A stretch of DNA of 64,000 bases from Toxorhynchites rutilus septentrionalis (lineage: Eukaryota; Arthropoda; Insecta; Diptera; Culicidae), in the NCBI RefSeq assembly GCF_029784135.1, contig NC_073746.1, positions 92,330,564-92,394,563 on the forward strand, read 5' to 3'. Shown piece after piece: positions 4,276-62,422 of the stretch. Made by a program: the position numbers and the translations under genes. The stretch's first letter is position 1, and each line of letters starts with the position of its first letter. The notes beneath the pieces were generated by a model. The model made no database searches, was not told the DNA's origin, and saw only the letters and a list, made by a program, of their open reading frames with translations.

Positions 4276-5925
4276 TCAAACTAAATTGTAACGATCACAC
4301 AGGAACTGTTCAATCGCAAAGAAATGTTCAAATAGTTTCACGGGAACATTTTCAGTTGATTGCAATATTTCGGACATATTCTTTAGGTTCGATTTAACGT
4401 TCGAAGGTGTAATTTCAAAACAATCAGCTGAAACTTCCTGAACCTCCTCTAACTCCATAGGACTACTATTTTCAACATTTTTTTCAGCTTCTTCAACACT
4501 TTCCAGTATATCGGTATCAGTCATTAGATCACAGCAAATCACGTTTTGATCCATTTCGCAATATTCATCAAGTGACGATGAACAATCGAATGGTACTGCA
4601 CTGTCGACAGCAGCAAGCTCACGACGCATTAATTCTGCCAGCGGAATATCATCATCATCATTTATGGAAAATCCGGCTTTCCTGAAGCAATTTTGAACAG
4701 TCTCAGATTTAACCTTGTTTATCCAAGAGCGTGAAAGTAATTCAATTGCATCCAATACCGATATATCTGAAGGGTCCTAGAGTATATTTGAATACAGTAT
4801 GAGTGCTGAATAACATGAATGTAAAAAGGAAAAAAATACCGTTGTATCCTCCATTACTAGCAGTCTTCGTTTTACTAATTCATGACGATAGTACTGTTTC
4901 AGGTTCTTGATTATGCCCAAGTCCATCGGCTGAACTACGGAAGTAGAGTTTGGTGGAAAAAACTGCAAATTTATCGATTTAAGCTTTGGTTGGAGAGATT
5001 TTGGGTGCGCTGTACAATTATCAACGAACATGACCACCTTTGAGGAGAAAGAGATATAAGTATGATACATTCCCATTACACATAATTCCCGAATCAATAC
5101 CTTTCTATTTTCTTTGGAAAATCTTTCGTCAAGTTGCATAATCCATTTCTCAAAAAGAATAGAGGTCATCCAGGCCTTGGTGTTACTCTCGTATATCACT
5201 GGTAATGATTTCTTCTTTTTGAAACATCGTGGGTTTTTACTCTTTCCAATGACCAGCAATGGTAGTACATCGCTTCCGTCCATGTTGGTTGCACACATGA
5301 CTGTCAGACGTTGTTTCGAATATTTTCCTCCGTGGCAAGTTTCTGATCGAAATTCAAATGTTTTGTCTGGCAAACATTTGTAGAAAAGTCCTGTTTCGTC
5401 TGCATTGTAGATATCACGTGCATCATACTCGGCGATTATACTGGGTAGGGTTTGCGAAATCCAGTTGTCCGTTACACTGAGATCTACACTGGCACTCTCG
5501 CAACATAGCTTCCGAAATGTCATCTTTTGCCGTTTTAAAAATTTACTTAGCCATCCAGAACTTCCTTTAAAATTGGGAATTCCCAGTTTCTGGGCAAATT
5601 CGCAAGCCTTCTCCCGAAGAATAAAACCTGAGAGAGGTAAATTATTCTGACAAAATGATTGATTGACAAAAATTTCCACTGACCGTTCCAGCTTCTCGTT
5701 CCCAACCAACCTTATACGCTTTTTGTCCACATTCAATTTTCCCATCCGATGCCATTTTTCCTTTTGCTTGAATAGTGTTGACACCGTACTTTGTGCAATA
5801 CTGAAATCTTTTGCAACTTCAGACACCTTTCGCCCATACTTTTCGACCTGCTCGATGATGCTCAAACGTTGCGCTATGGTTAGCGTTTTAATCGTTCGCT
5901 TGAAAGGTTTTCCCTGGTTTTCCAT
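4276..5925 (-). CDS. Tigger/pogo transposase, three exons, 507 aa, apparently intact
   Basis: This is the DNA-cutting enzyme of the element. Exon 1 (5925-5101, 275 codons) starts at ATG. It carries a CENP-B N-type helix-turn-helix (about residues 12-58, with AQRLSIIEQVEKYGRKVSEV), a second CENP-B-type DNA-binding domain (about 78-135) and the first catalytic Asp (D176 in NADETGLF). Exon 2 (5037-4840, 66 codons) has the second Asp (D281 in FVDNCTAHP) and the third (D314 in QPMDLG), giving DD32D spacing. Exon 3 (4776-4276) encodes the rest, including an acidic stretch, and ends at TAA. Two introns, 5100-5038 and 4839-4777, are each 63 nt, start GT and end AG, and keep the frame. The first intron has no stop codon, so an unspliced read-through form is possible. 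Without splicing, the second intron terminates translation. No frameshift or lost catalytic residue is visible. Confidence 0.9.
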
Positions 5926-6023
5926 ACTTGAAAAAAAAATCGTATTATGAACACTTCGTCTTCACTTTCAAGAGCAATTGAAATGACAGCTAGAAACGCA
6001 CAAAAACAAGTACGCGAAAATCA

Positions 6024-8963: not shown

Positions 8964-9097
8964 AACGCATTAAGATGGGATGTGCAGTCTCATGTTTTAA
9001 AATATTTTACGAACCAAATTTTATCTTGGTGTGCAGAAATAGTGGTCAAAAATATCTGTAAGGAATGAAAAATCAATTTCTTCCTGTTTTTTCATAG
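8964..9097 (+). repeat. 134-bp direct repeat, left copy (candidate long target-site duplication)
   Basis: It starts AACGCATTAAGATGGGATGT and ends TTTTTTCATAG. The same sequence recurs at 12453-12582 with one substitution and one 4-nt gap. The match begins and ends sharply at the borders of the ROMO1/R4 composite, as expected for a target-site duplication. Its last bases resemble a 3' splice site (pyrimidine tract then TAG), so an intron origin is the main alternative. Confidence 0.85.
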
Positions 9098-9240
9098 GTC
9101 TCATAAACAAGACGATTACGTGATTGCATCGCGCAAATTGTGCGGTGAAGTCAAATTAGCATTCACTTTTAACTTCACGATTAAACGTCGTTGTTTGCGA
9201 TTTTCACCGGGAAGCAGACCAATACAAACGAAAGAGCACA

Positions 9241-9486
9241 ATGCCGGCAGTACCAGGAAGTGTCTACGGTCAGAGTCAGCAGCCCTCCTGTTTTGATCGA
9301 ATGAAAACTGGTTTCACTATCGGATTTTGTGTGGGAATGGCCAGTGGTGCTCTGTTTGGAGGATTTTCAGCATTGAGGTATGGACTTCGTGGACGTGAGC
9401 TTATCAACAATGTCGGAAAAGTTATGATTCAGGGTGGAGGAACGTTTGGTACTTTCATGGCAATTGGAACAGGCATTAGGTGTTAA
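9241..9486 (+). CDS. ROMO1: ROMO1, reactive oxygen species modulator 1 (81 aa, intact retrocopy or native gene)
   Basis: ROMO1 is a small, nearly universal mitochondrial inner-membrane protein linked to reactive-oxygen production, cristae shape and protein import. The 81-aa product matches the family length (79 aa in mammals). It shows the family signatures [25 protein letters not shown] and [11 protein letters not shown], and ends GIRC. Conserved cysteines are at 17 and 81. A Gly-rich hydrophobic helix spans about residues 22-44 and a second about 55-78. There is no cleavable signal; family members use internal targeting. The ATG is preceded by AGCACA and is the only sensible start. The frame has no disabling change. 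The lack of introns and the own poly(A) tail argue for a retrocopy; whether it is transcribed is unknown, since a promoter would have to come from the new site. Confidence 0.93.
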
Positions 9487-9528
9487 AATGATTAGAAGCT
9501 CGATAAATCAATGTGTGAAGAAAAAGGC

Positions 9529-9534
9529 AATAAA
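9529..9534 (+). promoter_or_regulatory. Polyadenylation signal AATAAA of the ROMO1 transcript
   Basis: AATAAA lies 40 nt after the stop codon, and the A18 run starts 13 nt downstream, at the normal cleavage distance. Confidence 0.85.
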
Positions 9535-9546
9535 AAATATCAAAGC

Positions 9547-9564
9547 AAAAAAAAAAAAAAAAAA
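9547..9564 (+). repeat. A18 tract at the ROMO1/R4 junction
   Basis: Eighteen adenines follow ...ATATCAAAGC and precede GTTTAGGATACC of the retrotransposon. It is best read as the fossil poly(A) tail of the ROMO1 mRNA onto which reverse transcription jumped. Confidence 0.8.
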
Positions 9565-12438
9565 GTTTAGGATACCGTATTAGACCAAGAGGCGGACTGC
9601 TCCAACATCTCCGTGAAAGGCGTGAGCCTCCATGGCGAAGGAGATTGGAGCAACGGATCCTAAACAAGCGCGCCGCAATTGGAAGACTGATGGCGTACAA
9701 AAGAGGCAGCAGATCGGTGAAATTATGTCGCCAAGTTGCTGTGATCGTGCGGCCTACTGAAATTCGCCAGCTGGGAGCTCACCAGCTGACGGAAAAACTC
9801 GACACACTGGTACAGCAATTGAGCGTCCTTACAAAACGGCTGAAACGTTACTCTGACTCTGCAAAGCGCCAGGAACAAAATCGGATGTTCAGAGATAACG
9901 AGAAAGCGTTCTACGACCACATTAGCGACGAGAAGCCCGACTACCGCGAAGGTTTGCCAGATATTAGCGATGTGACGAACTTCTGGGCTGGTATTTGGGA
10001 GACCCCAGTAGAACATCGCGACGGACAAATGTGGTTAAGACGGGAGGAGGAGAGTTGTGGTGAAATTGGAGAGATGCCAGCTATCATCGTCGGAGAGAAC
10101 GATGTCCGCGAAGCCTCGCGGTACCTGAGGAACTGGGCAGCACCGGGCCCCGATGGTGTCCAGAACTTTTGGCACAAGAAGCTGACCGTCGCACATCCGA
10201 ATATAGCTGAGTGCTTCAACAAGGTGCTACGTGACCCACACAACCTTCCTGAATTCGCCACCCGTGGCGTCACCTTCCTCCTCCCGAAAGACAGCAACAC
10301 ATTGAACCCATCAAAGTACAGACCAATAACGTGCCTATCGAGTCTGTACAAAATACTGAGCAGCATAATTACCGCCAAAGTTTCTGCTCACTGCGAACAG
10401 CATCACATCATCGCAGAAGAGCAGAAAGGATGCAGGAAAAATACGCATGGCTGCAAAGACCAGGCCATCATCGACGCAGCCATAGTCGGCCAGGCGGTAT
10501 ACAACCAGCGGAACCTAAGTATGGCCTACATCGATTACAGGAAGGCTTATGACTCCATACCTCACTCGTTTCTCGTCCGGGTATTGGAGCTCTACAAAAT
10601 TGATCCCGTCGTCGTTAGGTTCCTGCAGCATGCGATGAGGCAGTGGAGTACGTCTCTGCACCTCAGTGATGGGGAAAATGTGTTGCAGTCTAGAACGCTG
10701 CAGATAAAGAGGGGGATCTCCAAGGCGACTCTTTCAGCCCGCTTTGGTTTTGTCTGGCACTGAACCCCCTCAGTAGGACGCTCAATAGAAACGGTCATGG
10801 CTATAAAATAAGGTATGGCGACGGCGCCCACGAAGAAGTGACCCATACCTTCTACATGGATGATCTCAAGGTATACGCTGATTCACGTCAGCGTCTAGGT
10901 GTAGCTATCCGGGTTGTCGAAGACATAAGCAGGGACATCTGCATGGAGTTCGGCCTTGACAAGTGCCGCTGTGTCCATCTGCTGGAAGGGCAGCTTACCG
11001 AATCCGGAGGTTAAGAGGTCTATGACGGCGAGTTCATAAGAAACATGGTTCGTGACGAATCCTATAAATATCTTGGATTCCGACAGCTCACCGGGATTCG
11101 CCACTCCGACATCAAGACGGAGCTGCGAGACAAGTTCTTGAGTCGAGTGAACTGTGTCCTGAGGACTTTCCTCAACGCGGGGAACAAGGTACGCGCGATC
11201 AACACATTCGCGGTTCCCCTGCTGACCTTCAGTTTTGGTGTAGTCAAATGGAGCAAAACTGACCTAGAGGACCTTGAGAGGAGAATGAGGAAATCAATCG
11301 GCACTGGAGAGAGTTTCACTGCCACGCAAAGAAGGGGGACTTGGAATAGTCGACATATCTGCACTGTGTGTTGCCCAGGTACGACAACTGCGCGAGTACT
11401 TCGCAGAACGCGCCAACCAAAACGCGCTATACCGGGCTGTCTGCGCCGCCGACAGAGGATACAGCGCTCTGCACTTGGCGCAAGCGGAGTACCAACTCAA
11501 CTGCAATCTGCAGACAGTGGAGGAGAAGATTGCAGCTTGGAAGCAGAAGGCAGTGCATGGTGCCCACCCCCATCAACTGGACCGGCCACACGTCGACAAG
11601 GCCGCATCTAATCTGTGGCTAACGCGTGGTGAACTCTCTTCAGTAGTAGAAGCCGACATGATAGCCATCCAGGACAGGATAATGCCGACGAGAAACTGCA
11701 GGCGGTACGTCTGGCATCAAGACGTTGATGACATTTGCCGGATGTGCCATCAACCAGGTGAAAACATAGAGCACATTATGGGAGGCTGTCCCGTTTTGGC
11801 CAACGCAGCCTACACCGAGCGCCACAACAACGTGGCCCGTATTGTTCATCGACAACTGGCGCTCCAATGTGCTCTACTGGAAGACAACGTACCAAACTAC
11901 CGGTACCTGCCTGCACCTGTCCTGGAAAATGACCGTTTCAAGCTGTACTGGGATCGCACTGTTCTGACCGACCTCTCGATCCACCACAACCGCCCAGATA
12001 TAATGGTTTACGACAAGAGCGACCGCAAAGTCACCATCATCGATGTCGCTATTCCACTGAACCAGAATCTGGAGGAGACCCACGGTCGCAAAATCTGCAA
12101 GTACCGACCATTGGCCGTGGAGCTCAAGGAACTGTGGGGGCTAAGGGAGGTCCCAAGAATTGTTCCAGTCGTTCTCTCTGGAACTGGAATTGTCCCGAAG
12201 ACACTTCTGGAAGCGCTAAAGGCGTTGAATATGGAGAAGGAATTGGCCGGCATCCAAAAGTCGGTCATCCTTAGCACCTGCGCGATTGTTCGACAATTTC
12301 TCGGTCAGGACTGAAACAGCACGAGCATGCAGATACGTGCATTCCGCAGAGCCTAGTCCCCCTTTGGCATTCAGAAGCCCGGGGGCAGGTGAAAATTCTG
12401 GCTAGGTTCGCATAGTTAAGAAGTGAGATAAGTCTGCC
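9565..12438 (+). mobile_element. 5'-truncated R4/Dong-type non-LTR retrotransposon with restriction-like endonuclease
   Basis: The open frame continues without a break up to the A18 junction, so the copy is truncated within its coding region. It encodes reverse transcriptase followed by a CCHC motif and a restriction-like endonuclease, the order of the R2/R4/Dong group. It ends with a 3' UTR of about 120 nt (12315-12438) and a second poly(A) of about 14 A. It shares the outer direct repeat with the ROMO1 copy. Confidence 0.85.
9567..12314 (+). pseudogene. R4/Dong-type polyprotein: reverse transcriptase plus restriction-like endonuclease, two frameshifts and one stop
   Basis: The first frame runs from the junction to 10763. 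It has an N-terminal basic linker, then RT motifs AAPGPDGVQNFW, TFLLPKDSNTLNPSKYRPITCL, EEQKGCRKNTHGCKDQ and AYIDYRKAYDSIPHSF. A frame change near 10720-10760 leads to the catalytic box FYMDDLKVYAD (from 10850). An in-frame TAA follows at 11012-11014. A second frame change near 11325-11345 restores the first frame. The last part (to 12314) carries the zinc motif CRMC...HIMGGC (from about 11740) and the endonuclease core RPDIMVYD...VTIIDVAIP (from about 11990), with the PD...D-type acid residues. Family assignment rests on the YMDDLK box, the GC.DQ motif and the C-terminal endonuclease. R4 versus Dong cannot be settled by eye. Confidence 0.85.
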
Positions 12439-12452
12439 AAAAAAAAAAAAAA
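12439..12452 (+). repeat. Terminal poly(A) of the R4/Dong-type element
   Basis: The A run extends to 12454, but the last two A's can belong to the direct repeat, which begins AACGC. It marks the 3' end of the reverse-transcribed RNA. Confidence 0.8.
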
Positions 12453-12582
12453 AACGCATTAAGATGGGATGTGTAGTCTCATGTTTTAAAATATTTTACG
12501 AACCAAATTTTATCTTGGCAGAAATAGTGGTCAAAAATATCTGTAAGGAATGAAAAATCAATTTCTTCCTGTTTTTTCATAG
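12453..12582 (+). repeat. 130-bp direct repeat, right copy (candidate long target-site duplication)
   Basis: It matches 8964-9097 end to end, lacking four bases after ATCTTGG and with one C/T change. The flanks beyond both ends are unrelated (GTCTCATAAAC after the left copy, ATTCGGTGGGC after the right), as for a target duplication. Confidence 0.85.
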
Positions 12583-13279
12583 ATTCGGTGGGCTAACACA
12601 ATTTTTCGCCAATTAATTCAATAGCCAATTCAATTACCTCATCAACCAGCTTTCGTTTGATTGCTATAAGGTTCCTGTAGGATCTTTAAACAAAGAGATA
12701 TTTTTGTTTGAATGAAAATTTCCCTTAGTCATTGCTGATCAATTGTACAACAAATAAGGGTTTTTGAATTTTTGGAAATCGATGAAAAATAAATCTAATA
12801 AATTTTTTTTCGTCAATGTAACAAATTATCTTTGCACATAGTTTATTGGAGTTTTCAAAACTGCTTTTCGATTCGCGATGCGACCATTATTAAAAGTATA
12901 AAAAGAATGAAGTTCTTCAGAAGTGATTCATGCAATTCGGAACCCATTTCTAATCTATAATTACGAGTGTCATAGAACCACTATGTCGGTCAAAACGATC
13001 TCGAGGAACTATTTTGACATCGACATCCTGTTCATTTTCACTGTCTGGTTGTTTAGAAAATTATTTAGCTTTTCTAGGGCAAATGACAAATGACAAAGTA
13101 AAAAATAATAAAACATTCGACATCGTTCTGCTAGTAGTGTTATTTCGCTATCATATAGATTCGTAGCCACAAGATCTCTATTTGAGGCCTGTTTCAGCTA
13201 GCGAGCAATAGATATATTTTCTTAAAGCTCAGGGTTAAATTGAAAATATGAAATTGTTGATTTCCTTCCTTTTCTTCCT
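12583..13279. other. AT-rich non-coding DNA
   Basis: No reading frame or repeat match was seen. This is the downstream flank of the ROMO1/R4 insertion. Confidence 0.5.
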
Positions 13280-13580
13280 GTGCGAGCAATTGGTCCCCTC
13301 GCTATAAACAGTAGAATAAGTTGAAATATAAATACACATGTAGATAGATATACGAATAGATCTAAGAATTGAGTGTGATCATCAACATTGTAACACTTTA
13401 CTGATATCCCATCCTTTTCCTGAAAAAATATGTCAGTCCACCGTGAGTAATCGGTTTTTCACCTTACTAACTATAGACTTAGGAACATTGTTTATATATA
13501 GTTTTAAATACATATTTAAGAATTCGACTTCTTTAAACTTATATAACTGATCCTGTAAAAATAAACGAATTTAAAAAAAA
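13280..13580 (+). mobile_element. 3'-UTR fragment of an I/LOA-like non-LTR retrotransposon
   Basis: This matches, in the opposite orientation, the 3' UTR of the element at 20676-21670. Shared blocks include AGAATAAG.TGAAAT, AAGAATTGAGT, GAGTAATCGGTTT and CCTGTAAAAATAAA, ending in an A run at 13573-13580. It is severely 5'-truncated, with no coding part, and more diverged than the other copy. Confidence 0.75.
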
Positions 13581-13879: not shown

Positions 13880-14780
13880 TTTTTTTTGTTATCAATACCT
13901 TAAAACATTCACGTTTTCTTACTAAGCGCAAGTTCATGAGTCCAATCGCAGAACTGTTCATTGATTGATCCTCTAATCGACCCCGTTGAATTTACCTTTT
14001 ACTATAAAATTCCTAGTACTTTTACCAAAACTCATCATTATAATATCAGATTATTTTCAGACACAAGTTACATGTAATAATTTGACTCCATTTGCTTGAT
14101 TAGTTTTCGAGTTATGCAGAAAATTGTTTTTCATTTGTATGAGGGTGGGCTTAGGGTGTTCACCCTAAGAGAGGGGGATGGAGTATCTAACCACCGTGAA
14201 ATTTGGTTTCGTTTGCTTGATAAATTCTCGAGTAATGCCGAAATGTATGTTTCATTTGTATGGCAGACCCCCCCCCCTAAGAGAGGAGGGAGGAGCATCT
14301 AACTACCATAGAATAATTTATTGCATCCTAAAACCTCCACATGCTAAATTTCGTTTCATTTACTTGATTAGTTCTCGAGTAATACAAAAAATTGTGTTTC
14401 ATTTGCATGGCAGCCCCCTCTAAGAGAAGAGGGAGGAGTGTCTAACCACCATAGACTCATTTATTGCACCCTAAAACCTCCATATGCCTAATTTGGTTTC
14501 ATTTGCTTGATTGATTCTCGAGTAATGCAGAAATTTGTGTTTCATTTGCATGGCAGCCCCCTCCTAAGAGAGGGGGGAGAAGTATCTAACCACCATAGAA
14601 TGATTTATTGCACCATAAAACCTCCACATGCCAAATTTCGTTTCATTTGCTTGATTAATTCACGAGTAATGTAGAAATTAGTGTTTTATTTGTATGGTAG
14701 ACACCCCCCCCCCACTCCCCCTTAGAAAGGGGGAGGGGTCTCAAACTAACATGAAAACCTTCCCCGGCCCCAAAGAAAGT
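13880..14780 (-). mobile_element. Helitron remnant in reverse orientation with five ~140-bp internal tandem repeats
   Basis: Read on the minus strand, 14070-13880 matches the 3' region of the other Helitron copies (ATTATAATGATGAGTTTTGG, then CAATGAACAGTTCTGCGATT). The last 45 or so bases with CTAG are missing. 14090-14780 is a tandem array. The other end matches the 5' part of the 47071-48053 copy (GGGGCCGGGGAAGGTTTTC). Confidence 0.75.
14085..14770 (-). repeat. Tandem array of ~120-148-bp units with C-run/G-run palindromes
   Basis: A common phrase (TTTGCTTGATT...TCGAGT.ATGCAGAAA) starts near 14091, 14213, 14361, 14504 and 14647. Each unit also holds a fold-back of the type CCCCCTC.TAAGAGAGGGGG. 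Copies of the same unit occur at 28660-29170 and 47450-47900. Confidence 0.85.
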
Positions 14781-20675: not shown

Positions 20676-21670
20676 ATATTTTTTTTATTTAAGTCATTTA
20701 TTTTTACAGGCTCAGTTACATAGGTTTAAAGGAGCCGAACTCTTAGCTATACTTTTATTAGTATATATCAACATGTTTCCTTAAATCTAGGGTTAATAAA
20801 GTAGGAAACCGATTACTCGCGGTCGACTCGAGATTAGAAGGGTGACATAGTTTCTTTTGGAAAAGGAGGGGATATAAGGATATTGTACAATGTTCACAAT
20901 CGCATTCACACTCACGCTCATCATACTCAATTCTTAAATCTATTATTATATCTATTATGTATATACATTTCAGCTTATTCTATAGTTAGTCAGAAGGGAA
21001 ACAGTCGCTCGCGAAGGAAAAAAAAGGAGAGGATAAGGGTGTACGGACAATCACACACGAAGATCGATAGTTTTAAGGAAAACATATATTAGGGACATGT
21101 AATCGAGGTCTAACCGAGCCAACACATCTCTCACCGGTACATTGGGCTGTCTACCTCGGGTCCGAAGGGAATTTTCTAAATTCGATCTGGCAACAAGATA
21201 CACCTCGCACGACCAAACAACGTGTTCGATGTCGTGGTAACCTTGGCCACAAACACAGAGATTGCTGCTGGCAAGATTGAAACGAAAGAGTAGCGCATCT
21301 AACGAACAGTGATTGGACATGAGTCGGGAGAAGGTGCGAGTAAAGTCCCGACTCAAGTCCAGACTTTTGAACCACGGTTTGAGGCTAACCTTAGGGGAAA
21401 TTGAGTGAAACCACCGGCCCAATTCATCTTCATTCCATTTGCGTTGCCAATTAGCGATGGTATTTTTACGGACTAAAGAATAAAATTCATTGAAGGCGAT
21501 TTGACGCTGATAAATGTCGCCCTCAATCGCACCTACCTTTGCTAATGAGTCAGCCCTCTCATTACCCGGAATGGAGCAATGTGAAGGGACCCAGACAAAG
21601 GTAATGACATAACAGCGTCTGGATAAAGCACTCAAAATTTCTCGTATTCTCTCAAGGAAGTACGGCGAGT
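20676..21670 (-). mobile_element. 5'-truncated I/LOA-like non-LTR retrotransposon, 995 bp
   Basis: The copy retains the C-terminal coding part and about 375 nt of 3' UTR ending in a T-rich (plus-strand) A-tail. A 13-bp target duplication GCACGTTTTATAT flanks it at 20663-20675 and 21671-21683. Its tail is shared with 13280-13580. Confidence 0.9.
21051..21670 (-). pseudogene. RNase H and C-terminal zinc-motif fragment of a non-LTR polyprotein
   Basis: About 206 codons remain open to the stop, truncated at the element's 5' end. The RNase H signature WVPSHCSIPGNERADSLAK is clear near the start. A C-terminal CVCGQGYHDIEHVVWSC motif (CxC...H...C) follows. RT and endonuclease are absent. RNase H followed by such a zinc motif suits the I/LOA/Ingi side of non-LTR elements; the exact clade is unsettled. 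Confidence 0.88.
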
Positions 21671-26710: not shown

Positions 26711-28012
26711 TAAAGGGTGTGTCACATCAAATTGCATCACGGAAAAAACGCTGTAGAAATTCGCCCAGTAGACCGATCCTTTTGAAAATTTCAGACAGTA
26801 AAATAAAAACTATTAAACAACTTTTGGTATTTTCTTTTTATTCATACTTGGAGCCCAAGCCCGTATGCTCGCACCTTCCTCTTTACCCCGTCCATAAGGT
26901 TCTGTACAACGTCAGGTTGTAGTTTTTTTTGAACAGAAATCCATTTTCTCTTGAAGTCCGCCTCCGATTTGACAAGTTTTGGGTTCTTCCGGAGGGCCTG
27001 CTTCATAATCGCCCAATATTTCTCTATTGGACGAAGTTCCGGTGCGTTGGGCGGGTTCATTTCCTTTGGCACGAAGGTGACCCCGTTGGCTTCGTACCAC
27101 TCCAACACGTCCTTTGAATAGTGGCACGAAGCGAGATCCGGCCAGAAGATGATCGGGCCCTCGTGCTGCTTCAATAGTGGTAGTAAGCGCTTCTGTAGGC
27201 ACTCCTTAAGGTAAACCTGCCCGTTTACCGTGCCGGTCATCACGAAGGGGGCGCTCCGCTTTCCGCAAGAGCAGATCGCTTGCCACACCATGTACTTTTT
27301 GGCAAACTTGGATAGTTTCTGCTTGCGAATCTCCTCCGGAACGCTGAATTTGTCCTCTGCGGAGAAGAACAACAGGCCCGGCAGCTGACGAAAGTCCGCT
27401 TTGACGTAGGTTTCGTCGTCCATTACCAGGCAATGCGGCTTCGTCAGCATTTCGGTGTACAGCTTCCGCGCTAGCGTCTTCCCCACCATGTTTTGCCTTT
27501 CGTCGCGGTTAGAAGCCTTCTGAACCTTGTATGTACGCAGGCCCTCCCGCTGTTTGGTCCGCTGGACGAATGAACTTGACAAATTCAGCTTATTGGCGAC
27601 ATCCCGGACCGAACTTCTCGGATCACGTCTAAACTGCTTAACTACGCGCTTGTGATCTTTTTCACTGACGGAGCATCCATTTTTGCCGTTCTTCACCTTC
27701 CGGTCGATGGTTAGGTTCTCGAAGTATCGTTTTAGTACTCTGCTGACCGTGGATTGGACGATTCCCAGCATCTTACCGATGTCCCGATGTGACAACTCCG
27801 GATTCTCGAAATGAGTGCGCAGGATTAATTCACGACGCTCTTTTTCGTTCGACGACATTTTTACAAATTTACGAAAAATTGACAGTGAAGCATGGCCAAT
27901 GTGATCTATACACTCTTATCTGATTATAAGCGAAAGCTGAAGATATAATTCCTAAAAATTAAATTTCTACAGCGTTTTTTCCGTGATGCAATTTGATGTG
28001 ACACACCCTTTA
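26711..28012 (-). mobile_element. Complete DD37E ITm (Tc1/mariner superfamily) transposon, about 1.3 kb
   Basis: The terminal inverted repeats are identical for about 51 bp: TAAAGGGTGTGTCACATC at the left, and its complement ending at 28012. TA dinucleotides flank both ends (26709-26710 and 28013-28014). Because the TIR itself begins TA, the border could shift by two bases. Perfect TIRs and an intact transposase indicate recent activity. Confidence 0.93.
26842..27858 (-). CDS. DD37E transposase, 338 aa, intact
   Basis: The enzyme cuts and pastes the element. The N-terminal half has two helix-turn-helix regions (about residues 8-45, with HRDIGKMLGIVQSTVSRVLK, and about 66-108, with SSVRDVANKLNLSSSFVQR). 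The catalytic triad is D148 (MDDETYV), D241 (IIFWPDLASCHYS) and E279 (PELRPIEKYW), with exactly 37 residues between the last two. This is the ITmD37E signature. Length is normal for the family, the ATG start is followed by a complete frame, and no stop or frameshift occurs. The second DD37E element in the window (39142-41621) is a different, decayed family. Confidence 0.94.
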   Translation of the reverse strand: MSSNEKERRELILRTHFENPELSHRDIGKMLGIVQSTVSRVLKRYFENLTIDRKVKNGKNGCSVSEKDHKRVVKQFRRDPRSSVRDVANKLNLSSSFVQRTKQREGLRTYKVQKASNRDERQNMVGKTLARKLYTEMLTKPHCLVMDDETYVKADFRQLPGLLFFSAEDKFSVPEEIRKQKLSKFAKKYMVWQAICSCGKRSAPFVMTGTVNGQVYLKECLQKRLLPLLKQHEGPIIFWPDLASCHYSKDVLEWYEANGVTFVPKEMNPPNAPELRPIEKYWAIMKQALRKNPKLVKSEADFKRKWISVQKKLQPDVVQNLMDGVKRKVRAYGLGLQV

Positions 28013-39179: not shown

Positions 39180-41490
39180 TCAGTAAAACAAAAATTCACG
39201 TAATACAACAAAACCGATTAATTCAGTAAAATATCTAAAACAAGGAAAGCTTCGATATGATTCACGTTGTCTGTAAAATTCATGAACATTCGTGGAAACA
39301 TCTGCCATTAGGTACCATACAGTATCCTCAGATATGCTGGCGGCGACGCTTTCCCATCTCCTCTTGATATCATTAACCCTCCTGTACTCGCGTGCAAAAT
39401 CATAACACGTATACTCGCGCACGGTGTCACAGACCGAAAATTTTTCAGGTTTTATTGGCATTTACTTGAAGAAGAGAGTATGATTGAATGAAAAAACTCC
39501 AAAAAATATGTTTTCTTCGTCTTTATTATGTTTTAATAGTCATGTAATTCAGCCTCCTCAAAATAGGGTAATTTTTGATACTCCAACACAAATAACGAAA
39601 TTCGAATTTTTCACTGTTATTAATTAAAAGTAAGCAACTGAATATAATTCATGGAAGTATAGAGAGCTATAAAATAACATAAAAACGTATTAATCGATTG
39701 TGGTTTCATTGGTGTGAGAATCAGAACATAGCATAGCTGCATGCATTTAACATATGTTTTACATTTCATGCAATTGTTGCGTGTTTTTCTGGTCTTTTAT
39801 CGAAGAGAAGAATTATAACGACCTTCTAGATAATTACGAGATGGTAAAGGTTCTGGAATATGAAGTTTGCATATTTCTAATATTCTTTGTCTCTGTTTTC
39901 TTAGTAAACTAAGAATTAAATGCCTTTCTTTAGATGGGGCATAAAAAGATGATATAAAAGAATTTCTAGGAACTTCCTTTTCTTTTTCTTGTTTTGTTGT
40001 CGATATTGTTCAAAAAAAAATAATCCCGAAACTGTTACTGTTAAAAATTACCATAAGCTACCATTAGTTTTTAGTTTACTGTTTACAATTCTTCCACAAG
40101 TGAAATTCTTTCACAAGTGTGTATATGTATGACCATTATATTTAGCGAATAACTATACGAAAGTCAAACATTTATATTTTGCTTTTGCACGTATGAATCT
40201 AACGACGAATAGTTAATCTATGGATCCGTTCAATTCAGTTACAAAAGGGACTGAAATCAAATAAGAATAGTCCGGTAATGATCTTATGCATTATATTCAA
40301 TAAATATTCTACGCCACTAACATTAATTTATACATTTTATTCAACAATATTCTAGAATATGAAAAAAGGCACTTGTCCAAAAAAGTTACTCTTATACTCG
40401 CGTCGGTTTGTCAGACCGAAAGTGTTACAAAAGTGACACACGTCCCCTTTGTACCAACACATGCGATACGTTAAACGATGACGAACGATGAATAACGAAG
40501 CTAGAGAGAATCCCAAAGTCGTAGTGTTGATATTTTTTGAGAAATGAACGAATTATTGATTTCTCGGTCTGACAGACCAATGCGCGAGTATAGGAGTGTT
40601 AATGCCATTCGCTTTCTTCTTAGTTTCGAATAGTTTTCGCTTAATCAGAGCCCAGTACTTTTCCACTGGGCGAAGTTCTGGACAGTTCGGTGGATTTGCT
40701 GTTTTTGGTACATATTTGACCTCATGTGCATTATACCATTCCAGGGTGGATTTTGCATAGTGACAAGAGGCGAAATCTGGCCAAAACAACGCTGGAGAGT
40801 CGTGGCTTCTTATGAATGGTAGCAAACGCTTCTGGAGACATTCCTTCTCGTAGACATACTTGTTGATAGTGCCAGTAGAGACGAAAGGTTTGTATTTTCG
40901 GCCACAACTACATATGGCCTGTCAAACTAAGTACTTTTTGGGGAATTTAGACTGCTTCTTGGTCCGGAAACACTTGGCCACGGCATTCCTTCGCATTGCA
41001 GTATAAAAAGCGAGACCCGGAAGCTGTTTGAAGTCTTCGAGAACATAAGTTTCATCGTCCATTATGGTGCATGAACATTTTTGCAAAAACTGGATGTAGA
41101 GCACCTTAGCACGGCTCTTTGCAGTGAAATTTTGCTTATCTTCACGATTGGGCACCTTTTTCACTTTGTACGCCTTCAGTCCATCCCTCTGCTTCACTTT
41201 GTGTACATATGATTTTGATTTTCCAACCTTTCGAGCCACATTTCGAACTGAAAGGTTAGGATGTTTCTCAATAATGGCAACCACCTTTCTGTCCATCTGT
41301 CGGGAGCATACTTTTCGATTGGTTCCGCATCCAACATTCCGATCCACAGTTAAGCGCTGGTCAAACGATTTGCACACACAGTACTCTTCGGCAGTTTTAG
41401 CTTTTTGACGAGATCGCGTACCGTCAATGTTGGATTTTGCTGCCGTTCGTGCAAAATGCGTTCGCGTACTTCCACTTGATTCGACGCCAT
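39180..41490 (-). pseudogene. DD37E transposase pseudogene, split by the piggyBac derivative
   Basis: From the start near 41490 (MASNQVEVRERILHERQQNP) the frame changes near 41370, continues with a helix-turn-helix (SVRNVARKVGKSKSYVHKVKQRDG) and the first catalytic motif (MDDETYV), and breaks again near 40922. 40825-40602 has the second and third catalytic motifs (LFWPDFASCHYAK, PELRPVEKYW), 37 residues apart. After the insertion, 39372-39250 supplies the C-terminus (NDIKRRWESVAASISEDTVW). It is dead but was DD37E. Confidence 0.9.
39377..40598 (-). mobile_element. Non-autonomous piggyBac derivative, copy 2 (1,222 bp)
   Basis: It is flanked by TTAA at 39373-39376 and 40599-40602. Ends CCCTCCTGTACTCGCG and CACTCCTATACTCGCG. 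Closely similar to 23512-24775 along its length but without the hairpin's left arm, and with a degenerate C-terminal cysteine-rich remnant near 39705-39790. Confidence 0.9.
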
Positions 41491-41623
41491 TTTACCAAAC
41501 TGGAGACATGTAAACATGTTGAACATCGAAATAAAGAGGAGGGTTTCAGCTGTCATGTAAGTGAAATATTTCATAAACTACACTGAAAGAAAAGTGTCCG
41601 AAATTTAACGTGGACAGGCTTTA

Positions 41624-47070: not shown

Positions 47071-48053
47071 TCTTCTATTTATATATATAAAAATGGATTT
47101 CTGTCTGTCTGTCTGTCTGTCTGTCTGATTCTTATGGACTCGGAAACTACTGAACCGATCAACATGAAAATTTGTGTGTAGGGGTTTATGGGGCCGGGGA
47201 AGGTTTTCGTGATAGTTTGAGACCTCTACCCCCTCTCTAAGCGGGGGTGTTACGGGGGTTTCGGAGGTTCTATTCAGCACGCGTGTTTTACAATTGTATA
47301 GCGAGCTCAAAGCTGTATTTATCAGGGAAAACGTTAGTTCAATACAAAATTCATATTATTGGTTTTACCTACATTTGGAGTGGTACCGTCCGTACCGCAG
47401 GGTCGGATCAAGTCAGCAGTGGCGTAGTTTGTCTCCCCCCAACAGGGGGCTTCCATACAAATTAAACACGAATTTCTACATTACTCGAGAATTATTCAAG
47501 CAAATGAAACCAAATTTGGCATATTAAGGTTTTAGGATACAATAAATGTTTCTATGGTGATTAGACTCTCCACCCTCTCACTAAGGGGGGGCTGTCATAC
47601 AAATGAAACACAAATTTCTGCATTACTCGAGAATTAATCAAGCAAATGAAACCAAATTAGGCATATGGAGGTTTTAGGGTGCAATAAATGTTTCTATGGT
47701 GGTTAGACACTCCTCCCGCTCTCGAAGGGCGGGATGTCATACAAATGAAACACAAATTTCTGAATAACTCGAAAACTAATCAAGCAAATGGAACCAAATT
47801 TGGCATGTGAAGGTTTTACGGGACACGAAACGTTCCTATAGTGAATTTACTCCTCCCCCTCTCTAATGGGGGCTGCCATACAAACGAAGGTTTTTGTAAA
47901 AAGGTAAATTCAACGGGGTCGATTAGATTCAATCAATGAACAGTTCTGCGATTGGACCCATGAACATGCTCATAGTAAGAAAACGTGAATGTTTGAAGGT
48001 ATTGATAACAAAAAACAAATTTTGGGCGAGACGAAGTTTGCCGGGTCAGCTAG
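47071..48053 (+). mobile_element. Helitron, most complete non-autonomous copy (about 980 bp)
   Basis: The 5' end begins TCTTCTATTTATATATATAA after an A, and the 3' end is GGGTCAGCTAG before a T, which fits A-T insertion with 5' TC and 3' CTRR ends. Inside are a TCTG microsatellite (47100-47128), a leader-like segment, and about four tandem ~140-bp units. No Rep/helicase coding remains. Confidence 0.82.
47450..47900 (+). repeat. Tandem ~140-bp units inside the Helitron
   Basis: Units start ATACAAATGAAACACAAATT near 47455, 47597 and 47738, with a partial unit at 47876. Each carries a C-rich/G-rich fold-back (CCTCTC..AAG.GGGG). Confidence 0.85.
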
Positions 48054-57143: not shown

Positions 57144-57313
57144 ATGTCCATCAAGCATTCTCCGGTGAAAAAGGTCAACCGATCATCACTCGAAACATCA
57201 CTCCAAGATGAAGACTCGTTCGCAGGATTTTCTACCCAGGAAATCGGATCTAACACCAAGGCAAAGAAAGGTTATCTGTCGCTTCTTCGTCAGCGTGAGC
57301 AGGTGAACCAAAA
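57144..57313 (+). pseudogene. N-terminal gag segment of BEL/Pao, out of frame with the main polyprotein
   Basis: An ATG at 57144 opens MSIKHSPVKKV and runs to a basic, glutamine-rich stretch (LLRQREQVNQNW) that leads directly into the gag capsid part encoded in another frame. The frame change lies at about 57300-57325. Either a one-base lesion has disabled this copy, or the true start lies in the long frame; the fluent match of both sides favours a lesion. Confidence 0.65.
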
Positions 57314-60300
57314 TTGGTCCGTGTGCAGAATTCCCTATTGTCTGCACAGGGCCAAGTTAGTTTAGCCCAGTTAAAGACATACATGAAGAACATCGACGCA
57401 GCCTACTCCGAATTCAGCGGCTTCCATAGCAGAGTAATGGCGTCGATTGACGAGGAATGTGTTCCAGCTCAGGAAGAAATCTATACCAACTTCGAAGAAC
57501 GTTTCAACGAGGTTTCGACGACCATCGAAGAAATGATGATGGCCTACTCTACTGATCGTACCACTCAGGGTGTTGTACAACAAGGAGTCTCACTCCCACC
57601 ACAAATAATCGTCCAGCAACAAGCGCTGCGAGCCCCCTTGCCAACGTTCGACGGCCAGTATCGAAATTGGCCCAAGTTTAAGGCGATGTTTCTGGACCTG
57701 ATGGACGCTTCTCGTGACTCCGACGCAGTGAAGCTGTACCATCTGGAGAAGTGCTTGATCGGTGATGCGAAGAATGTAATAGACGCTGCTACCATCCGAG
57801 ACGGCAACTACGAACATGCGTGGCGTCTTCCCAAAGAGAGATACGACAACAAGCGGCTGATCGTTGACACCCATATCCAAGGCATCAAGAATCTTCCGAA
57901 AATGAAGAAGAAATCATCAAGGGAACTGCGAACTCTGCTCGACGAATGTACGCGCCATGTCGAGGGTTTGCGGTTCATGGAGCAGGAGCTAACCGGAGTA
58001 TCAGAACTATTCGTGGTCAACATCCTGACTGCAGCCTTGGATCGTGAAAGTCGTGAAATCTGGGAGAAGAGTTTAAACAAACGAGAACTCCCGAAATATC
58101 AAGACACCATCGATTTCCTTCAAGACTGGTACCTGGTATTGGAGAGGTGCGAGGAAGCCTCATCAATTTCAACTTCGAATACGGTGAAACAGAAAGATTT
58201 TGCATTGTCGGAAGGTGCGTCACGAGCGTATCATGCTAGTACATCGCCAGCCAGCGTTACATGTGAGTTGTGCCCCGGACAGCATCTCAACTTCAAGTGC
58301 CCCGTGTTTCGCAACATGTCCGTTGCTCAGCGGCACGCCAAAATCAAAGAGGAGAAAGCGTGCATCAATTGTCTTCGTAAGGGCCACCAAGTCAGTGCCT
58401 GTCCGGTCGAAAGAACCTGTGCTAAGTGCGCAGCCAAGCATCACACGTTGCTCCATCTCGAAAGGAATCAGCAGTTAACGACAGACACGATCAATCAACC
58501 CCGTCAACCAACGGAGATACAGGCTCCAATTCCGTGGCAATCTGTTCCGCCGGTTGGAGAATCTGTTAATGCTTCATGCTCCAGCGTCGTAAGACCAACA
58601 AAGCATGTTCTGTTGCTGACAGCCGTGGTCAACGTGTATGATAAGGACGGTCATCCGCATGCCTGTCGGGCACTTCTGGATTCCGGATCCCAGATGAATT
58701 TCTTGTCAGAATTTATGGCGAGAACTCTCGCCGTTACGAAACTTCCTGCTAACATACCAGTAATTGGAATCGGTGGTATCAAATCCCACATTCGACAGAA
58801 GGTCATCGTGCAAGTTACCTCTAACTACAGCCTTTTTAACAAGAAGATGAAATTCTTGGTTACGCCCAGAGTTACTGGGTCCGTTCCGTCTACAAATATT
58901 GACATCTCCAACTGGCGTATTCCAGCCGGAATGCAGTTAGCGGATCCACTCTTCCAAACCCCGGGAAAGGTGGATATGTTAATCGGAGCGGAGTTTTTCT
59001 TCGAACTCATGATGCAAGGGCAGCTGCATCTCAGCCACAACCTACCATTGCTACAAGAGACCAAATTTGGGTGGATCGTTACCGGAGTCTACGAAGAACA
59101 GCCAACAGAAGTCTATTCCAATGTGGCTTCTATGGACGATCTCCATCATACCATCCAACGGTTCTGGGAGATTGAGGATCTCGGCAGCACCCCGCTGCAA
59201 TCAAACGAACTACAAGAAGTTGAAGATCACTTCCATGATACGTACCGTCGTGACGAGAACGGCAGATTCGTCGTACAGCTTCCTTTCCGTAATTCGGTTG
59301 TCAACCTACCTAGCAATCGATCACTCGCCTTGAAACGTTTCTTCCTGCTCGAACGACGCCTGGCACGCCAGCCAGAACTGAAACAGCAATATACTACCTT
59401 CATCAAGGAGTACCAGGATCTCGGACACTGCAAGGAAGTCCGAGAATCAGATGATCCACCAGCCAAACAAGTTTACTATCTACCTCATCATGCGGTGCTG
59501 AAACCTTCGAGCACCACAACGAAAGTCAGAGTCGTGTTCGATGGCACAGCTAAATCATCGACAAACTCGCTCAACGACGTGTTGAAAGTAGGACCAACGG
59601 TACAAAGTGACCTGTTTTCAATCGTCCTACGTTTCCGGAAGTATCGGTACGCTTTCACCGCCGACGTCTGCAAAATGTACCGACAAATCCGGGTTGACGA
59701 GAGGCAAACCTGTTTCCAGCGAATATTCTGGCGCGACAAACCTACTGAATCCCTGAGGGTGTTAGAATTGACCACCGTCACATACGGGACGGCCTCAGCT
59801 GCTTACCTTGCAACCAGATCCCTGAGGCAACTCGCAGAAGACGAAGGGGATAATTATCCAACCGCCAGCAAGGTGGTACAGGATGACTTCTACATCGACG
59901 ACGTGTTATCTGGTGCGGACACAATCCATGCAGCAATCCAGCTGCAATTTGATTTGCAAGAACTTCTCGCCAGGGGTGCCTTTCCACTGAGGAAATGGTG
60001 CTCAAACTCACCGGAAGTACTGCGGAACGTTCCAGAAGATGATCGTGAGCTGATATTCGACGTAGATGATTCATCCACTAACGCATCGATCAAGACACTT
60101 GGTCTCCTGTGGGACCCAACACAAGATGATTTCCGGATCGCCGTTTCCAAATTAATTGGTGATAAGCCCATCACCAAGAGGTATGTCTTCAGTGAGATCG
60201 CAAAGATGTTTGACCCCCTCGGATTCGTGTCATCTGTGTTAGTGTTAGCTAAGGCGCTGATGCAGCGCATTTGGTCGGCCAATTTGGAGTGGGATGATAT

Positions 60301-62422
60301 TTTGGACCCCATCCTCTTCCAAGAGTGGGTTAAAATTCGTGACTCATTGACCGAGCTAAGCACGCTGCGCATTCCCAGGTGCGTAATATCACCCGATACC
60401 GTTCGCTGCGACATTCATGGCTTCGCAGATGCATCTGGCAAGGCCTATGGAGCTTGCCTCTATCTTGCTTGTACAACAGCTGATGGAAAAAAATCTGCTC
60501 GTTTGCTGTGTAGCAAGTCTAAAATTGCACCGCTCACCGAGATGTCCATCCCAAGGAAGGAGTTGTGCGCTGCTCTCCTGTTAGCTCGACTGTTATCCAA
60601 GGTGCTCGCAGCTATAAAATCAACTGTCGACAGTGTGAAGCTCTATTCAGACAGTCAAATCGTGCTAGCCTGGTTGAAGAAGCACCAACAACAATTGGAG
60701 GTGTTCCAAAGAAACCGTGTGGTGGAAATCAACCGTCTAACGAAGAGTGAGCAGTGGAGATACGTCCACACCAGTGAAAATCCAGCCGACATCATTTCGA
60801 GGGGTCTTTTTCCTGCGGCCCTCAACAGAAATCGGTTATGGTGGGAGGGTCCCTCCTTCCTGACAAGTGAAGATCCCAAAATCGACGATTCTCCGCTCAT
60901 TTTAATTCCGGATGAAGAGCTTCCGGAAGTCATGGGCGATATCATCGCCGTACCATCAGTCGCTGCAAGTTTTCTACCGATTTTCGAAAGGTCAAGTGAC
61001 TTTCGGAGGCTACAAAGGGTAATTGCATTCGTATTAAGATACGTCAGCAACTTACGTCATCCAAAACCAGAACGAAATCTGAAGCCACACTTATCCGTCC
61101 CTGAAATAAGAAGGTCGTTAGAATGCATCATCAGGTTAGTTCAATCACTGGAATATCCTGAAGAAATTAGCTGTATTTCCAGGGGAGAAGTCCCAAAAAA
61201 TCTGGCCAACCTTAGTCCGTTTATGGATGACGAAGGCCTACTCGGAGGTCGCCTCCAAAATTCAAACCTGCGATATAACTCTAAGCACCAACTGCTTCTA
61301 CCTCATGGACATCCTGTCGTCGAAGCGCTGGTACGTGCAATACACGTTGAACATCTTCACGTAGGGCCATCTGCACTTCTAGCCATCCTACGGGAGATGT
61401 TCTGGATAACGAGGGCGAAATCAACAGTTAGGAAGGTTTGCCGAAGATGCATAAGCTGCTTCAAGGTCAACCCGAAGGAATCCCATCAGCTAATGGGAAA
61501 TTTACCACAGAACCGTGTGGTGCCAGCGTTTCCCTTCGAGAACACCGGTGTAGATTACGCTGGTCCTATCACCATCAAGGAAGGGCGATACAAGCCGAAG
61601 CATGTAAAGGGGTACATCGCCGTCTTCCTGTGCTTAGCAACGAAGGGAATCCATATCGAGTTGGTGTCGGACCTGAGCACCGAAGCGTTTTTGGCTGCCT
61701 TGGATCGATTCGTCAACCGTAGAGGTCTGGTGAAACGGATGCTCTCAGACCATGCAACTAATTTCACTGAAGCCTCTAAGGAGTTGCATCACCTTTATCA
61801 GCTTCTGAAGGACGAAACTACACAAGCCAAGATTGTGGAGTTCCTATTATCCAAGGAGATCGAATGGCTTTTCATTCCGCCTAGAGCCCCCAATTTTGGT
61901 GGCTTGTGGGAGGCCGGGGTGAAGAGCGTGAAAACACACCTCAAGAGGGTCCTCCAGTCAGCCATCCTCACCTTTGAAGAGTTATACACCGTCTTAACAC
62001 ACATCGAGGCAGTTCTTAATTCGCGCCCGTTGTATGCTCTGTCGGAGGATCCTAACGATCCTTTGCCCATCACCCCAGCGCATCTCATGTTACTAAGACT
62101 GCTGGAACCAGTGCCGAAGCCGACACATTTGGATGTGCCAGTACACCGTCTGTCACGGTGGCAATACCTCAATTTTTTGCGCGACCATTTCTGGAAGAGA
62201 TGGTCTAAGGAGTATTTGTCTACGCTCCAAGCTAGAAGCAAGTGGACAAGAACGCAACCAAACCTACAACCAGATATGATCGTCGTAATCGTCGAAGACA
62301 ATTCTCCAGCTCAATCGTGGAACCTAGGAAGGATTATCAAGACGTATCCGGGAAGGGATATGATCGTTAGAGTGGCTGACGTCAAAACGGCCACCGGAGT
62401 ATACCGGCGAGCTGCAAGTTAG
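57314..62422 (+). CDS. BEL/Pao gag-pol polyprotein, 1,702-codon open frame
   Basis: It encodes the particle proteins and enzymes for reverse transcription and integration. In order: gag capsid region (about residues 1-300); zinc knuckles (317-380: CELCPGQHLNFKCP, CINCLRKGHQVSAC, CAKCAAKHHTLLH); aspartic protease with LLDSGSQMNF (D456); RT with TADVCKMYRQI (about 783) and catalytic FYIDDVL (about 860); RNase H with HGFADASGKAYGA (about 1035) and YSDSQIVLAWL (about 1110); integrase with the H-H-C-C zinc domain (IHVEHLHVG near 1343, CRRCISC near 1375) and catalytic D in NTGVDYAGPI (about 1414), D in LSDHATNF (about 1478) and E in GLWEAGVKS (about 1532). All active-site residues looked for are present and there are no internal stops. 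The first codon is an alternative-type start, so the real N-terminus is probably the out-of-frame segment upstream. Confidence 0.93.
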   Translation: MVRVQNSLLSAQGQVSLAQLKTYMKNIDAAYSEFSGFHSRVMASIDEECVPAQEEIYTNFEERFNEVSTTIEEMMMAYSTDRTTQGVVQQGVSLPPQIIVQQQALRAPLPTFDGQYRNWPKFKAMFLDLMDASRDSDAVKLYHLEKCLIGDAKNVIDAATIRDGNYEHAWRLPKERYDNKRLIVDTHIQGIKNLPKMKKKSSRELRTLLDECTRHVEGLRFMEQELTGVSELFVVNILTAALDRESREIWEKSLNKRELPKYQDTIDFLQDWYLVLERCEEASSISTSNTVKQKDFALSEGASRAYHASTSPASVTCELCPGQHLNFKCPVFRNMSVAQRHAKIKEEKACINCLRKGHQVSACPVERTCAKCAAKHHTLLHLERNQQLTTDTINQPRQPTEIQAPIPWQSVPPVGESVNASCSSVVRPTKHVLLLTAVVNVYDKDGHPHACRALLDSGSQMNFLSEFMARTLAVTKLPANIPVIGIGGIKSHIRQKVIVQVTSNYSLFNKKMKFLVTPRVTGSVPSTNIDISNWRIPAGMQLADPLFQTPGKVDMLIGAEFFFELMMQGQLHLSHNLPLLQETKFGWIVTGVYEEQPTEVYSNVASMDDLHHTIQRFWEIEDLGSTPLQSNELQEVEDHFHDTYRRDENGRFVVQLPFRNSVVNLPSNRSLALKRFFLLERRLARQPELKQQYTTFIKEYQDLGHCKEVRESDDPPAKQVYYLPHHAVLKPSSTTTKVRVVFDGTAKSSTNSLNDVLKVGPTVQSDLFSIVLRFRKYRYAFTADVCKMYRQIRVDERQTCFQRIFWRDKPTESLRVLELTTVTYGTASAAYLATRSLRQLAEDEGDNYPTASKVVQDDFYIDDVLSGADTIHAAIQLQFDLQELLARGAFPLRKWCSNSPEVLRNVPEDDRELIFDVDDSSTNASIKTLGLLWDPTQDDFRIAVSKLIGDKPITKRYVFSEIAKMFDPLGFVSSVLVLAKALMQRIWSANLEWDDILDPILFQEWVKIRDSLTELSTLRIPRCVISPDTVRCDIHGFADASGKAYGACLYLACTTADGKKSARLLCSKSKIAPLTEMSIPRKELCAALLLARLLSKVLAAIKSTVDSVKLYSDSQIVLAWLKKHQQQLEVFQRNRVVEINRLTKSEQWRYVHTSENPADIISRGLFPAALNRNRLWWEGPSFLTSEDPKIDDSPLILIPDEELPEVMGDIIAVPSVAASFLPIFERSSDFRRLQRVIAFVLRYVSNLRHPKPERNLKPHLSVPEIRRSLECIIRLVQSLEYPEEISCISRGEVPKNLANLSPFMDDEGLLGGRLQNSNLRYNSKHQLLLPHGHPVVEALVRAIHVEHLHVGPSALLAILREMFWITRAKSTVRKVCRRCISCFKVNPKESHQLMGNLPQNRVVPAFPFENTGVDYAGPITIKEGRYKPKHVKGYIAVFLCLATKGIHIELVSDLSTEAFLAALDRFVNRRGLVKRMLSDHATNFTEASKELHHLYQLLKDETTQAKIVEFLLSKEIEWLFIPPRAPNFGGLWEAGVKSVKTHLKRVLQSAILTFEELYTVLTHIEAVLNSRPLYALSEDPNDPLPITPAHLMLLRLLEPVPKPTHLDVPVHRLSRWQYLNFLRDHFWKRWSKEYLSTLQARSKWTRTQPNLQPDMIVVIVEDNSPAQSWNLGRIIKTYPGRDMIVRVADVKTATGVYRRAAS

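Follow-up and report, generated by a model that had tools for sequence, protein, structure and literature searches.

Two successive retropositions very probably built the composite insertion described here, with a copy of a ROMO1 mRNA arriving first and an R4-type LINE entering its tail later. The insertion lies in a window of 64,000 nucleotides (C3:92330564-92394563) from the 902.6-Mb assembly of Toxorhynchites rutilus septentrionalis, which comprises 514 contigs. Inside one pair of direct repeats are found, in this order, a ROMO1 cDNA copy, a poly(A) stretch, a 5′-truncated LINE of the R2 group, and a run of 16 adenines (Table 1). The initial annotation of this DNA had placed the repeats, the ROMO1-like unit, the A18, the truncated LINE, and the second A-run where they are indeed located.

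Table 1. Features of the composite insertion, in window coordinates
Feature	Position	Strand	Remarks
Left direct repeat copy	8964-9097	+	134 bp; read as the target duplication of the ROMO1 retrocopy
5′ junction bases absent from parent	9098-9100	+	Parent reads ...AACG, then TCATAAAC
ROMO1 retrocopy (5′UTR, CDS, 3′UTR; intron exactly absent)	9101-9547	+	From comparison with parent
Intact ROMO1 open frame	9241-9486	+	81 aa; Pfam Romo1, E 8e-26
A18, poly(A) tail of retrocopy	9547-9564	+	First A templated; last four A's equally attributable to LINE
5′-truncated putative R4-type LINE (RT, zinc finger, and endonuclease regions)	9565-12438	+	Family 3′ end GTCTGCC
A16, read as rest of ROMO1 tail and A-only LINE duplication	12439-12454	+	Last two A's within right repeat
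Right direct repeat copy	12453-12582	+	130 bp; right half runs on into right flank at paralogous insert-free site

The two repeat copies are one substitution and one 4-bp indel apart, and the chance of an exact 65-nt repeat in 6 kb is, as a rough figure, about 4e-29. Owing to the two adenines shared by the A16 and the right copy, the length of the duplication is given as 132 to 134 bp. As had been proposed, a single pair of copies (134 and 130 bp) surrounds both parts, and the insert ends coincide with both repeat borders to within three bases. The outer target site, AACGCATTAAGATGGGATGT (also given as AACGCATTAAG...), is 35% A and is not A-rich.

Comparison with its parent gene, which has two exons, identifies the ROMO1 unit as a young processed retrocopy. 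A genome search with ROMO1 gave three matches at two loci: one is the window copy, and the other two are the exons of the parent, which lies in two blocks on the minus strand of another chromosome (C2:125223391-125224064). The 228-bp intron of the parent, bounded by GT..AG, is precisely missing from the window copy, in agreement with the processed copy of a multi-exon parent that had been annotated. Copy and parent show 2 differences in 447 bases (at 9131 and 9234, both in the 5′UTR) and are identical up to ...CAAAGCA, after which the copy has an A-run and the parent has CC; the poly(A) begins where the parent sequence departs, near the 3′ end. The encoded protein is 98% identical to ROMO1 of Wyeomyia. 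Once the nested LINE is set aside, the retrocopy is directly flanked by the long repeat. The unit is present as annotated except for its start, which had been set at 9098 and includes three bases that are not in the parent, the true start being 9101. These three bases are either non-templated or the result of a 2-base slip at the mRNA start.

The LINE belongs to the restriction-like-endonuclease (R2) group and is putatively R4-type. It has an RVT_1 domain match, and its C-terminal half resembles R2 proteins and carries a CX2CX8HX4C finger together with the PD...D endonuclease residues. Its RT, CCHC zinc finger, and C-terminal (R/K)PD...D endonuclease follow one another as is typical of the R2 group. 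Of the 16 relatives found, 10 were aligned with it, and this alignment shows no variation at the first C, H, and last C of the finger or at the PD...D residues. A predicted model of the protein (pLDDT 80.6) has R2 proteins as by far the best matches among the structures listed. The frame of the window copy is disrupted by two deletions and one stop. A T. rutilus septentrionalis protein is 98% identical over 43% of the LINE's C-terminal query, and a T. rutilus protein of the family has 290 residues ahead of the start of the window copy. Sampling of 22 stretches, one of which was then extended, retrieved two near-complete copies in C2:149990001-150010000 that reach approximately 1.13 to 1.16 kb further upstream. 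At the place of the window's poly(A) and the GTTTAGG after it, both have CCAAAAGTTTAGG, so that four A's at the junction are common to LINE and poly(A). The domains, residues, and model on the one hand and these longer copies on the other bear out the annotation of the second part as a LINE of this group truncated at 9565.

A genome search with the LINE yielded 2191 first-look candidates, of which 40 were scored, and 41 matches were listed. Flanks were surveyed for the 30 copies scoring best after the window's own (rows 2 to 31), with the window copy and the ten lower rows excluded; random 20-mers (20,000, from 21 sampled loci) and random 40-mers served as background for the 3′ and 5′ flanks, respectively. 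In 24 of these 30 best-scoring copies, A makes up at least 60% of the 20 nt that follow the family 3′ end, versus 3.5% of the background; 23 of the 30 have an A-run of at least 6 in this stretch, versus 2.7%, and the other seven have none. An exact match placed the family 5′ end in 20 of the 30; in 17 of these 20, an A-run of at least 6 occurs within the 40 nt preceding the element, versus 6.3% of the background. Half of the 20 stand directly behind another R4 tail, while the other ten comprise seven with an A-run, two in A-rich microsatellites, and one (copy 8) with neither. In some surveyed copies (2, 3, 4, 10, and 30), the upstream A-run ends a non-R4 sequence. By alignment, the starts of copies 3, 19, and 20 are no more than 17 bases from the family 5′ end, and for copies 7 and 23, the 5′ stretch that was fetched is all LINE sequence. 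Copies 1, 6, 14, 15, and 17 have no LINE in the fetched 5′ stretch and may be truncated; the 3′ flank is at least 0.6 A in three of the five. In the 30 copies read, the sites of the family are therefore mostly poly(A) tails, A-rich microsatellites, and the family's own A tails.

Target duplications were sought as exact repeats between flanks, for which 8 of the 30 surveyed copies were evaluable; two of these are in microsatellites, and the remaining six have exact flank repeats of up to 15 bp. One copy in an array on C2 has A10TGG on both sides, a duplication of 12 to 13 bp, while inspection of the flanks of its neighbor, array copy 1, found no clean duplication. The arrays themselves (C2:149993952-150002028 and flanks L029 to L088) consist of R4-type copies placed head to tail, the family inserting into the A tails of its own copies. 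In 7 of the 30 best-scoring copies, an R4 head is also found no more than 60 nt downstream.

The following course of events would account for the composite. The machinery of some LINE would have copied a spliced and polyadenylated ROMO1 mRNA into a dispersed repeat on chromosome 3 by target-primed reverse transcription. Fill-in of staggered nicks about 134 bp apart would have produced the 134-bp duplication there, and three extra bases would have been left at the 5′ junction. An R4-type LINE of the large, A-run-favoring family would then have entered the poly(A) tail of the retrocopy; its cDNA, cut short at an internal A4 run, would have been joined to the remaining tail, probably by a few A/T pairings. 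The LINE's own duplication would consist of A's throughout and be hidden within the A18 and A16, which is why the outer repeats seem to belong to both parts, and the outer borders would coincide with the composite because the retrocopy tail ends at the right repeat. We infer the order of the two steps from the targets: an outer site with 35% A and a 134-bp duplication is unlike the family, whereas the poly(A) of the retrocopy is its kind of target, which argues for ROMO1 first and the LINE second.

The initial annotation had instead proposed that the composite arose at once, the R4-type RT first copying its own RNA at the outer site, leaving it at the internal A4, and switching to the poly(A) of a full-length ROMO1 mRNA, so that the 134-bp repeat would be its duplication and an intact retrogene would be left; in a variant, the two RNAs would have been ligated before reverse transcription. 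Such an origin agrees with the one visible repeat pair around both parts, with their similar age, and with published accounts of template jumping by the R2 protein in vitro (PMC8857657) and of R2 joined to U12 snRNA and tRNA in Drosophila (PMC3414825). It appears improbable, however, because the outer site, with an A fraction of 0.35, departs from most of the 30 family sites read, and because a duplication of 134 bp stands against exact repeats no longer than 15 bp in the six copies evaluable outside microsatellites and against short duplications wherever the family's are readable. The junction, with its four-A microhomology between the LINE and the poly(A), suits a template switch, but the same junction is predicted by a truncated cDNA joining a poly(A) target. 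The A16, in turn, would require a tail of the LINE's own, and the seven of the 30 copies without an A-run of 6 indicate that such a tail is not obligatory, so the A16 is better explained by the target. The divergences (private substitutions of the LINE, 18/2828; repeat pair, 1/130; ROMO1, 2/447) would fit one age as well as two and neither support nor exclude two steps.

The ancestral state of the outer site is visible at a paralogous locus. When the flanks on either side of the insertion were joined at the repeat and aligned to the sampled loci, they matched across the junction to positions 5174-5342 of one of them (L011) with 72% identity over 175 columns. The match starts at base 69 of the repeat and covers its right half only, which at this single paralogous site is continuous with the right flank. 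Since the repeat joins the right flank directly there, this arrangement is the ancestral one, into which the composite was inserted. This continuity, together with the match between the repeat borders and the insert ends, supports the annotation of the repeat as a duplication made on insertion. By the same alignment, the 134-bp repeat belongs at least partly to dispersed sequence. That the repeat is older (tandem or born by recombination) and unrelated to the retrocopy, with either ROMO1 or the LINE having inserted at its edge, is very unlikely: its partly dispersed nature and a length great for a target duplication would suit such an origin, but both borders match the insert ends to within three bases, and the one paralogous site seen continues without a break from the right half of the repeat to the flank, as a target duplication predicts. 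A second short dispersed repeat lies in the right flank of the composite (window positions ~13256-13400); it recurs once in the window, at ~20920-21029, and is also present in three sampled loci in all (L012, L019, and L022).

Several features count against two steps in succession. The 134-bp duplication is long for a LINE and is assigned here to no particular maker. In 20 of the 30 surveyed copies, the LINE starts exactly at the family 5′ end, whereas the window copy is truncated. Copy 8 has no upstream A-run, and array copy 1 on C2 has no clean duplication. Furthermore, an A-only duplication between the A18 and the A16 is invisible, and the second step hence leaves no unique scar.

In the exact absence of the intron, the poly(A) at the point where the parent departs, and the flanking duplication, the ROMO1 copy resembles processed retrogenes mobilized by LINEs. 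An R2-group LINE with a very long target duplication, of about 126 bp, is reportedly R9 of bdelloid rotifers; the long duplication is alike, but those of the window LINE family are short where they can be read. The 132 to 134 bp found here also differ from the target duplications of 10 to 20 bp given for LINE insertions in PMC2104539.

That restriction-like-endonuclease LINEs target microsatellites is already known, as described for DongAg and DongBg (PMC3636483) and for some HERO families (PMC4640811). The window LINE shares with them the endonuclease group and the simple-repeat sites. Unlike these elements as portrayed in those accounts, its family is commonest in A-runs, including foreign tails and its own, the latter leading to head-to-tail arrays. 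All known R4 and CRE elements are stated to insert with a target duplication (PMC3636483); in the present family, a duplication of 12 to 13 bp was read at one array copy, and elsewhere a duplication would be concealed by A-runs or microsatellites.

Bipartite chimeras in print include mammalian U6/L1 (PMC13174262) and Magnaporthe MINE (PMC2104539); for L1, the joining of RNAs by ligation or trans-splicing ahead of insertion has also been discussed (PMC13174262). The initial annotation knew of no chimera made by an R2/R4-group element in mosquitoes, but published R2 copies from Drosophila carry U12 snRNA or tRNA sequence at their 5′ ends, and in one of these the outer junction contains three non-templated bases (PMC3414825). 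The composite is like the chimeras described in these sources in having a copy of a cellular RNA directly upstream of a LINE of the same sense within one insertion. It is unlike them in that the LINE's target habit and duplication size misfit the outer site and in that the upstream copy of a polyadenylated mRNA is itself a likely target of the LINE.

The window contains other mobile elements. An open frame of 1707 codons at 57299-62419 (+ strand), with Pao peptidase, DUF1759, integrase zinc-binding, and DUF5641 domains, belongs to a BEL/Pao LTR retrotransposon. Transposase remnants of the DDE_1/Tc5 and DDE_3 types are located at 4780-5961 and 26845-27915, respectively, both on the minus strand. 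A third remnant, at 40925-41491 (− strand) and with a helix-turn-helix match only, looks by eye like the N-terminal part of the DDE_3 remnant. Two tandem arrays, at 14199-14697 (143-bp unit) and 47445-47888 (142-bp unit), have consensus units that by eye look reverse-complementary.

The retrocopy, its frame intact, duplicates ROMO1 and could be expressed. The LINE family is an abundant example of a LINE residing in A tails, among them those of its own copies. By seeking out poly(A), a LINE can mimic a template-switch chimera, leaving a retrocopy, a poly(A), a truncated LINE, and a further poly(A) within one pair of repeats, and surveys of chimeric retrogenes in insects should first check the target habit of the LINE.
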